Assembly: GCA_902826635.1 (NCBI GenBank)
Contig: CADEFQ010000005.1
Location: 1 to 64,000 of the forward strand
DNA from: an uncultured Pseudomonadota bacterium
GTDB lineage: Bacteria > Pseudomonadota > Gammaproteobacteria > Steroidobacterales > Steroidobacteraceae
DNA: 64,000 nucleotides
Reading direction: 5' to 3'
Part shown: in pieces, positions 17,237 to 20,166 of the stretch
How positions within the stretch are numbered: the stretch's first letter is position 1
How the letters are laid out: each line of letters starts with the position of its first letter
Position numbers and translations under genes: made by a program
Notes under the pieces: model-generated
Database searches by the model: none
Told to the model about the DNA's origin: nothing
Seen by the model: the letters and a program-made list of their open reading frames with translations, nothing else

Positions 17237-18178
17237 TCAATGGCGGTGATTCAGCCAATGCCGTGAGCTGGTGTAGATATCGCCGTCGCGCCCGAAGTAC
17301 AGCCGCTCGCGATCGGCGGACATCGACGAGCGCGTTTCGCTGCCCGCGGTGTTGACGTTCGCGCCAAGATTCACCGGCGCCGACCAGGGCTGGCGCGTGC
17401 TGCGCCGGGTCGACACGTAAACATCGAAGCTGCCAAACGCCGCAGTACCGTTCGCGTCGGTCGGTCGCGTCGAGCTGAAGACGATTTCGAGTCCGTCCCG
17501 GCTCACGTTCGGCATGCGATCGTCGAACTCGGTGTTCAGTTCCTGCACCGGGCTCGGCGGACCGAAGCGCCCATCGGCTCCCCGTCGGCTCCTGTAGATG
17601 TCCATGTTGCCGCTGACGGTGCTCGAGAAATACAGGAACGTGCCTTCGTGCGTCGTGACGAGCGAAGGGCTGAACTCGGCACCCGCGCTGTTCGGACCGG
17701 TGCCGGATTCGAGGCAGCCGAGGTGCTGCGGTTCGCCCCAGCCAAAGGCGGCATTGCGCCGGATCAGGTAGATGTCGCCCTTTCCCGGGCCCGCGTTGCA
17801 CGTTTCCGCGCCCGGTCGTTCGGACACGAACATCAGATAGCTGCCGTTCAGCGGGGTCGGGCAGAAATCCGCGAACTCCGAGTTCACGGGCGCACCGAGA
17901 TTCTGTGGTTCGCCCCAGGCCGAGTCCTTGGTGGCGCGGTCGGCGGCCCAGATGTCGTTGCCGCCGAGCGTGCCGGGCCGATTCGAGGCAATGTACAGGC
18001 TCAAGCCATCGGGCGACTCGATCGGGCAGCCGTCACCCGCCGGACTGTTGATCTCGGCAACCGCCGTCGCGATCCCCCAATCGGACAGGTGTTTCGCGTC
18101 GTGCCATCCGCCGGCGTTCAGGACCATCGGCAACGCCGCCGCCGCGCCCATCACGCACAATAAGTTGCATTTGTTCAT
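17237..18178 (-). CDS. Secreted PD40 (WD40-like) beta-propeller protein
   Basis: A 313-residue protein with a signal peptide (about 1-22) and repeated PD40 blades: SPDGLSLYIASNRPG, NGSYLMFVSERPG, EGTFLYFSSTVSG, SRDGLEIVFSSTRP and SADRERLYFGRDG. Such propellers resemble the C-terminal half of TolB and often sense or bind a ligand at the cell envelope. No enzymatic motif is present. It is transcribed divergently from a CadC-like regulator with a TolB-type domain, and the gap of about 100 bases holds three periodic CTGAT repeats. I therefore infer that the regulator controls this gene. Confidence 0.8.
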   Translation of the reverse strand: MNKCNLLCVMGAAAALPMVLNAGGWHDAKHLSDWGIATAVAEINSPAGDGCPIESPDGLSLYIASNRPGTLGGNDIWAADRATKDSAWGEPQNLGAPVNSEFADFCPTPLNGSYLMFVSERPGAETCNAGPGKGDIYLIRRNAAFGWGEPQHLGCLESGTGPNSAGAEFSPSLVTTHEGTFLYFSSTVSGNMDIYRSRRGADGRFGPPSPVQELNTEFDDRMPNVSRDGLEIVFSSTRPTDANGTAAFGSFDVYVSTRRSTRQPWSAPVNLGANVNTAGSETRSSMSADRERLYFGRDGDIYTSSRHWLNHRH

Positions 18179-18232
18179 GGTGTCCCCCGTTTGAAGATTG
18201 CGGAATGTTGTGGGGAACCCGATGGCTCAGGC

Positions 18233-18262
18233 CTGATGAAACCCTGATATCGTGCTGATATC
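18233..18262. promoter_or_regulatory. Three CTGAT direct repeats with 11-base spacing
   Basis: CTGAT occurs at 18233, 18244 and 18255, exactly 11 bases apart, and the last two extend to CTGATATC. Direct repeats one helical turn apart are the usual target of OmpR/PhoB/CadC-type winged-helix proteins. The gene starting at 18283 encodes such a regulator, and the divergent PD40 gene starts at 18178, so this is a candidate autoregulatory and target operator. Confidence 0.5.
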
Positions 18263-18282
18263 TCTCTCGCCACGACATTCGC

Positions 18283-20166
18283 ATGACCGGCACGCAGGAA
18301 TTCCAGCTCGAGGAGCTGCGGATCGATCCAAAGGCCGGCGAGGTCGTCGGCCCGGGCGGGCGCGAACAGCTCGATCCGAAGGTCATGGGCGTGCTGGAGT
18401 TCATGGCGCGGCACGCGGGTCGAGTCGTTTCTCGCGACGAACTGCTCGCGCAACTGTGGCCCAACGCGGTGGTCACCGACGACGCGCTCACGCGCTGCTT
18501 CTATGAACTTCGCCGGCACCTCAGCCAGGCAGGCGGCAGCGAACGCTACAAGACGATGCTCGAGACGTTGCCGAAGCGTGGCTATCGCCTGAACGCCACG
18601 ATCTCGCGGCCGCCTTCCCGGCCGGAGCCCCGTCCGCAACCCGTGTCCCGGCGACGATGGGTCGCGCCGGCGATCGGGCTGGTGGTCGCCGCGGCCCTGT
18701 TGATCCCCATCAGCCGGCGCTTCGCCCACCCACCCCCGCCGCCGCAATCCTCCTCCGTGGCTGCCGCTCTGTCGCTGTCGACTGCGGCGCGCTCCATCGC
18801 GGTTCTGCCGTTCGTCGACATGAGCGCCGGTCAGGATCAGGCATGGTTCGCCGACGGCATCAGCGAGGAAATCCTCAATCGGCTCGCGCAGTCCGGATCA
18901 CTGCGCGTGATCGCACGGACGTCCTCGTTCTCGTTTCGCAATCGGCCGGTGGATATTCCGGAGATCGCCGCGCGGCTCGGCGTCACTCATGTCCTCGAAG
19001 GCAGCGTCCGACGGGCGGGGGATCGTGTCCGCATCACGGCCCAGCTGATCGCGGCCGCGGACAGCTCGCACGTCTGGTCCGAAACCATCGAGCGGAAGTT
19101 CGGCGATCTGTTCGCGGTCCAGGACGAAATCGCGGCCTCCGTCGCCACCGCCCTGGATGCCGCGCTCGTCGTCAGACCGGCGCGCGGTGAAGCACCGGTG
19201 AACCCCGCGACCCACGAAAGTTTCCTGCAGGGCGAGTTCTTTTATAACCGCCGCGCACCCGGCGACATCCAGCGTGCCGTCAAGTACTACGAGGAAGCCG
19301 TCGAGATCGAGCCGAAGTACGCCAGGGCCTGGGCCGCTCTTGCGGGGGCGTACGCACTGCTTGCCGACCTTGGGGGCCCGACCAGCGGCGACTGGACGAC
19401 ACGCCAGAACGAGGCGGCACACAAGGCCGTCGAGTTCGGCCCCGAGCTCGCCGTGGCACATGCCCGCCTTGGGCAGTATTACTTCAGGACGGGGGATCGC
19501 GAGCGAGGCGAGGCGCTCTTTCAAAAGGCCTTGGCGCTCGATCCCGACGACGCGCTCGTGGCCGGCTTCGCCGTCAGCGACGCGATTCGGCGCGGTGATC
19601 CTGAGGCGGCACTCTCGATTCAGCGCAAGCTCGCGGCGCGCGACCCCCTTTCGGTCACGCAACGCGGCAACTTCGGCACTTTGCTGTTCGTGACAGGGCG
19701 CCTGGACGAGGCGCTTGCGGAGTATCGCATGGCGCTGGAACTCAGCCCGCAGGGCGGATGGGAGCGCGAGTTCGACGCGGTATGCGTTCTCGTCGCGCTG
19801 CGGCGCTACGATGACGCGTACCGTGCCATCGAGCGCCTGCCGACCGGCAAGCGCGACTTCGGGCTCGCCCTGCTCCACGAAGCGCCCGGCCACCGGGCAG
19901 AAGCGGACGCCGCACTCTCGCGATTGAGCGCACGATCGGCCAGGGTGAGCGACATCCGGCTCGCCGACGTATACGCGTTTCGCGGCATGCGGGACGCGGC
20001 ATTCGCTGCGCTCAAACGCGCACAAGAGGCGATTTCACGCGAGGGCAGCGCGACACTCGAGCGGGCACGGGCATGGGATTTTCATGAAGAATTGCGCGTG
20101 TCGCCCTTCCTGAATCCGCTGCGCTCCGATGCTCGCTGGGCCGCGCTCACGGCCGATCCGCCGTAG
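18283..20166 (+). CDS. CadC-like transmembrane transcriptional regulator with TolB-like and TPR domains
   Basis: A 627-residue protein. The N-terminal OmpR-type winged helix (about 8-105) includes VVSRDELLAQLWPNAVVTDD and LPKRGYRL. A proline-rich linker follows, then one membrane segment (about 125-147). The periplasmic part has a TolB/FlgO-like domain (IAVLPFVDMSAGQDQAWFAD, about 170-300), then TPR-type repeats (about 300-600). This layout is that of membrane-bound one-component activators that sense periplasmic signals and bind DNA directly. The ligand is unknown. The start at 18283 lies just after the CTGAT repeat array. Confidence 0.85.
   Translation: MTGTQEFQLEELRIDPKAGEVVGPGGREQLDPKVMGVLEFMARHAGRVVSRDELLAQLWPNAVVTDDALTRCFYELRRHLSQAGGSERYKTMLETLPKRGYRLNATISRPPSRPEPRPQPVSRRRWVAPAIGLVVAAALLIPISRRFAHPPPPPQSSSVAAALSLSTAARSIAVLPFVDMSAGQDQAWFADGISEEILNRLAQSGSLRVIARTSSFSFRNRPVDIPEIAARLGVTHVLEGSVRRAGDRVRITAQLIAAADSSHVWSETIERKFGDLFAVQDEIAASVATALDAALVVRPARGEAPVNPATHESFLQGEFFYNRRAPGDIQRAVKYYEEAVEIEPKYARAWAALAGAYALLADLGGPTSGDWTTRQNEAAHKAVEFGPELAVAHARLGQYYFRTGDRERGEALFQKALALDPDDALVAGFAVSDAIRRGDPEAALSIQRKLAARDPLSVTQRGNFGTLLFVTGRLDEALAEYRMALELSPQGGWEREFDAVCVLVALRRYDDAYRAIERLPTGKRDFGLALLHEAPGHRAEADAALSRLSARSARVSDIRLADVYAFRGMRDAAFAALKRAQEAISREGSATLERARAWDFHEELRVSPFLNPLRSDARWAALTADPP

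Follow-up and report, generated by a model that had tools for sequence, protein, structure and literature searches.

Three direct repeats at an exact 11-bp period ahead of a CadC-like membrane regulator gene: a probable private operator in a Steroidobacteraceae genome

Main finding

The intergenic region between a CadC-like membrane regulator gene and a divergent gene for a PD40 beta-propeller-repeat protein carries three direct repeats with an exact period of 11 bp. Judged from the sequence, this array is probably the private operator of the adjacent regulator, which would thereby control the gene that encodes it and probably also the divergent gene. The reading draws on five observations, each treated below: the repeats are present, they are conserved, they are tied to the regulator gene, no second good copy was found elsewhere in the genome, and 11-bp repeats recur at this place across the family as a group.

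The array and its flanking genes

The window, the whole stretch of 64,000 nucleotides that was analyzed, contains the following features at this locus:

17237..18178, minus strand: PD40 beta-propeller-repeat protein, 313 aa, proposed divergent target (Pfam PF07676, E 1.5e-21)
18179..18282, no strand: intergenic region between the divergent genes, 104 nt, in which both promoters are expected (sequence)
18233..18262, plus strand: proposed regulator operator, three direct repeats at an exact 11-bp period, CTGATGAAACC CTGATATCGTG CTGATATC (sequence and conservation)
18283..20166, plus strand: membrane-bound one-component regulator of CadC-like type, 627 aa, candidate for reading the array (domain searches)

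The CTGAT copies occupy positions 18233-18237, 18244-18248, and 18255-18259 and are thus spaced at exactly 11 bp; units 2 and 3 are alike beyond CTGAT, sharing CTGATATC. The array begins about 55 bp ahead of the PD40 start codon, and 20 bp separate its last unit from the start codon of the regulator. Coordinates and domain matches agree with the original prediction, which had placed three CTGAT units with an exact 11-base period between divergent PD40 and CadC-like genes. CTGAT is the sole 5-mer in the entire 64-kb window that is tripled at period 11, and when the 104-nt gap was shuffled 20000 times with dinucleotides preserved, any such 5-mer triple appeared in only 3 shuffles. Operators of the PhoB, ToxR, and SARP type, read by winged helix-turn-helix (wHTH) domains, are characterized by at least two direct repeats at 10-11 bp; the array has three, at exactly 11 bp. 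A scan of the 104-nt intergenic region for a sigma-70-like site gave no match.

The regulator combines an N-terminal wHTH domain of the OmpR type (approximately residues 5-105; Trans_reg_C, 47.8 bits against a cut-off of 26.2, E 1.6e-12) with a TolB/FlgO-like region (residues 168-261; E 4.2e-6) and TPRs. As in ToxR- and CadC-like proteins, a single transmembrane (TM) segment is predicted after the DNA-binding domain (residues 126-144, hydropathy peak 2.17). Among solved structures the wHTH domain matched CadC best (5ju7, E 1.2e-14), followed by response regulators including PhoB. The protein falls outside the curated NCBIfam family of CadC, the lysine decarboxylase activator (78 bits, cut-off 400), and also outside that of HilA/EilA, its best NCBIfam match (84 bits, cut-off 589). 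The N-terminus of the PD40 protein resembles a signal peptide.

Conservation and association with the regulator gene

In a genus sample of seven genomes, own genome included, both genes are found with a close regulator in 4/7, and the array is present in all four; the regulators of the three other array loci are 51-58% identical to the window regulator. The units in the four orthologous loci read CTGAT, CTGATATC, and C[TC]GATATC, the first unit in G005 being CTGAC. Invariant columns make up 23/31 of the array block versus 10/73 of the remaining gap; in the same four-locus comparison, the opening 118 bases of that regulator gene have 54/118 invariant columns. In a fifth genome (G006), a PD40 gene neighbors a less closely related regulator (43% identity), and the repeats are different ones (TCCTCAAA twice at 10 bp); searches of the remaining two (G003, G004) for PD40, a close regulator, and the array pattern found none of the three.

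A gene-blind pattern, CTGAT-N6-CTGAT-N6-CYGAT, was run over 200 genomes of the taxonomic family and matched in nine, in four of which (G000, G001, G002, G130) the match lies ahead of a window-type regulator. Three of these are loci of the genus; G130 belongs to another genus and has four units, CTGATGAAACC CTGATATCGAC CTGATATCGTC CCGAT, upstream of a regulator whose winged helix is 69% identical. The divergent gene at this locus is not PD40 but, as read from its translation, PAP2/haloperoxidase-like. A second G130 regulator (68% domain identity), whose divergent gene was also read as PAP2/haloperoxidase-like, follows two TGATATC units (TTGATATC/GTGATATC) at 11 bp. The matches in G066, G159, G076, and G097 look coincidental and lie mostly within or at coding sequence. 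The ninth match, in G068 (G068:C66:32100-32137), consists of four CTGAT-like units with an exact 11-bp period between genes that appear glycosyltransferase-like and LD-transpeptidase-like from their translations; a winged-helix gene is absent from the 3 kb covered there, and this array is unexplained.

Since G130 keeps the array and the regulator type while its divergent gene is not PD40, the array goes with the regulator. Close PD40 homologs (E below 1e-30) are directly divergent from a wHTH gene in 8 of 9 cases; in the ninth (G059:C68), one small ORF, read as UrcA-like, separates PD40 from the winged-helix gene. The wHTH regulators beside PD40 homologs belong to several subfamilies and have differing upstream sequences. 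Together with the G130 array, this indicates two distinct modules, the first made up of regulator and array, the second of the exported protein. The original prediction of direct repeats of the kind read by wHTH proteins is thus borne out by an array that is conserved in all four loci where PD40 and a close regulator occur together and that follows the regulator into another genus; loss of the repeats from close relatives retaining the two genes, which would have counted against it, was not seen, the G006 regulator being more distant. Overall, the original prediction is supported in part: the array is tied to the regulator, and the predicted circuit may close on the propeller, but the propeller is no fixed target, as the PAP2/haloperoxidase-like genes of G130 illustrate.

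Search for further sites in the genome

Searching the own genome for the same repeat, which had been proposed as a way to define a regulon, yielded no convincing regulon. With up to two mismatches, the three-unit pattern gave four matches: one was the array, and the other three, of which two overlap each other, had 2 mismatches each; no second array copy was found in this genome at one mismatch or less. The two-unit pattern with up to three mismatches gave 87 matches versus 16 for a reversed control, an excess that may be a composition effect. Only two of these matches have 0-1 mismatches, both within the array itself, and the five that have 2 mismatches all lie across open (stop-to-stop) frames. 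Matches at 2 mismatches are few and appear to be chance hits, and a weak regulon besides the array is possible.

Repeat words across regulator subfamilies

The words of the arrays vary by regulator subfamily: CTGATATC at the window locus, and elsewhere GCCGAT, CCGGGATTTG, CATGGAGATTT, TTCTGGCAAAC, and CTGAC. A Mantel-type comparison of word and recognition helix beyond relatedness gave a partial r of 0.12 over all pairs (23/1000 permutations) and no signal for pairs below 50% identity. Paralogs in the own genome were viewed individually: G000:C46 has TCCTCAAA-like units at a 10-bp period in a locus that partly reads N, and faces a PAP2/haloperoxidase-like-looking gene; G000:C10 shows three copies of CCTGA at a 22-bp period (by eye) and faces an UrcA-like-looking gene; in the upstream sequence of C48, no repeats were seen.

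Family-wide survey of repeat periods

Of 150 winged-helix matches listed in the 200 family genomes, 149 were used (G109:C19 was left out), and 148 were analyzed upstream, one locus having less than 130 bp. Any 5-mer recurring at a distance p was scored in the 130 bp preceding the winged-helix domain, counted back from where the domain alignment begins and not from a mapped start codon. The set includes the window locus, some response regulators, and cut genes, and many of its members are related. Period 11 was found in 65/148 upstream regions, versus 17.3 in shuffles (sd 3.9, maximum 30 in 200 shuffles), and period 22 in 45/148 (shuffles 15.5); the remaining periods from 6 to 23 gave counts of 9-26. 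Farther out, period 11 occurred in 29/148 of the next 130 bp upstream, and on the coding side in 16/149. After clustering to 65 groups, the values were 24.1 for period 11, 16.3 for period 22, 13.1 for period 10, and 3.0-10.4 for the others; looser clustering (50%, 40%) collapsed nearly everything into one or two groups and was uninformative.

In a class-level set outside the taxonomic family, period 11 was found at 12/28 loci. TetR control genes of the same taxonomic family (n = 70, made up of 30 returned loci and the top 40 of the additional rows listed) showed it in 9/70, with Fisher p values of 3e-6 against the family set and 0.002 against the class set. The period-11 excess peaks 40-60 bp ahead of the domain start (33/176 versus 2.7 for control periods), and three equally spaced copies occurred at period 11 in 14/176; among the other periods from 7 to 22, only 10 and 22 had such triples, with a single case each. 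By this 5-mer test, an exact 11-bp repeat was not detected in over half of the family regulators; moreover, in a regulator subgroup with 42-49% identical winged helices (at least four members: G071, G169, G059, G075), no clear array is visible, and the rule is therefore not followed by every member. The distant class-level regulators L260, L263, and L280 have CTTCGG-like units in common, with an 11-bp period.

Comparison with known systems

The operator type as such, a set of direct repeats, is already known from PhoB, ToxR, and SARPs; OmpR-type domains characteristically bind direct repeats that lie roughly one helical turn from each other. PhoB places wHTH domains head to tail on the 11-bp repeats of the pho box and is a response regulator with a receiver domain; in the window regulator, no receiver domain was found. 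HilA joins a wHTH of the ToxR type to a TPR-like part and is not known to have a TM segment, whereas the window regulator carries a predicted one and scores far under the curated HilA/EilA cut-off. AfsR-type SARPs have other domains (BTA, NOD) and no known membrane anchor. The ToxR/CadC family shares with the window regulator an N-terminal OmpR-type wHTH, one TM segment, and a C-terminal sensor, but the sensor of the window regulator is TolB/FlgO-like with TPRs.

According to the accessible portion of the ToxR source, this protein reads TNAAA-N5-TNAAA, which as written there is a direct repeat with a 10-bp period (PMC8517210). E. coli CadC, in the part of the report available, was modelled on two head-to-head AT-rich sites and not on direct repeats (PMC5430869); with at least three head-to-tail units at the window locus, the arrangement here is therefore, as far as that text goes, not simply that of CadC. 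The SARP source, in its accessible part, describes direct repeats at spacings of 11 or 22 bp, read by an OmpR-type DNA-binding domain that is joined by TPR in AfsR (PMC10936776); both periods appear in the present survey, but AfsR belongs to Streptomyces and to activators of antibiotic synthesis. A literature search, with most subscription journals outside its reach, recognized no paper on repeats before TolB/TPR CadC-like genes, and in the main text of PMC10269533 the terms TPR, TolB, autoregulat-, adjacent, and binding site are all without occurrence.

Alternative explanations and the preferred reading

The array could instead serve a different regulator of the OmpR/PhoB type, such as a response regulator, with the CadC-like gene merely its target. 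The response regulators PhoP and PmrA likewise read tandem direct repeats, according to partially accessible sources; yet a shared regulator should have further sites, and a second array copy at one mismatch or less does not occur in the genome. The words, moreover, vary between subfamilies as expected of private sites, and the array stays with the regulator where the other gene changes, which leaves this explanation improbable. Marginally less probable again is that the repeats are parts of a promoter or transcript leader, such as -10-like GATATC boxes, and no operator. GATATC does occur in units 2 and 3, 20-40 bp from the start codon and in a possible place for a core promoter, but an exact 11-bp period, up to 4-5 units, and subfamily-specific words are no promoter feature; the TetR-family control genes do not show this pattern, and a sigma-70-like site was not found in the gap.

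A chance repeat at one locus would fit an array of just three short words; set against the shuffling result (3/20000) and the retention of the array in four loci and a second genus, it is very hard to credit. 

The preferred and probable reading is the private operator of the adjacent regulator. Under it, the cytoplasmic winged-helix domains of the regulator, held together at the membrane, would bind side by side, probably one domain per 11-bp turn and in head-to-tail order. Because the last unit ends 20 bp from the regulator start codon, the protein, once bound, would overlie or border the core promoter of the regulator gene; autoregulation of this gene is likely, and repression is its most likely sign. 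The array is also suitably placed for switching the divergent PD40 gene, for which activation and repression are both possible, and the TolB/TPR part of the regulator would be expected to sense the signal.

Significance

The new element is a group, the TolB/TPR membrane regulators, with arrays upstream of their own genes and with subfamily-specific words, which was not found in literature searches. Such membrane regulators are numerous and mostly without known targets. If the upstream repeats are their own sites, the target words become predictable from sequence, can be tested in batches, and would be informative on how wHTH domains choose their DNA. At about even chances, the TolB/TPR membrane regulators of this bacterial class, a large and little-studied family, are self-contained cassettes with a private operator of 11-bp period ahead of each gene, each regulator acting on its own gene and, in many cases, on a single divergent gene for an exported protein. 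Should this be true, the operators of many orphan regulators would be readable by period alone, opening the way to a code that relates the wHTH helix to its DNA word. The locus in the window, where regulator and exported propeller form a compact pair, also lends itself to tests of membrane sensing.
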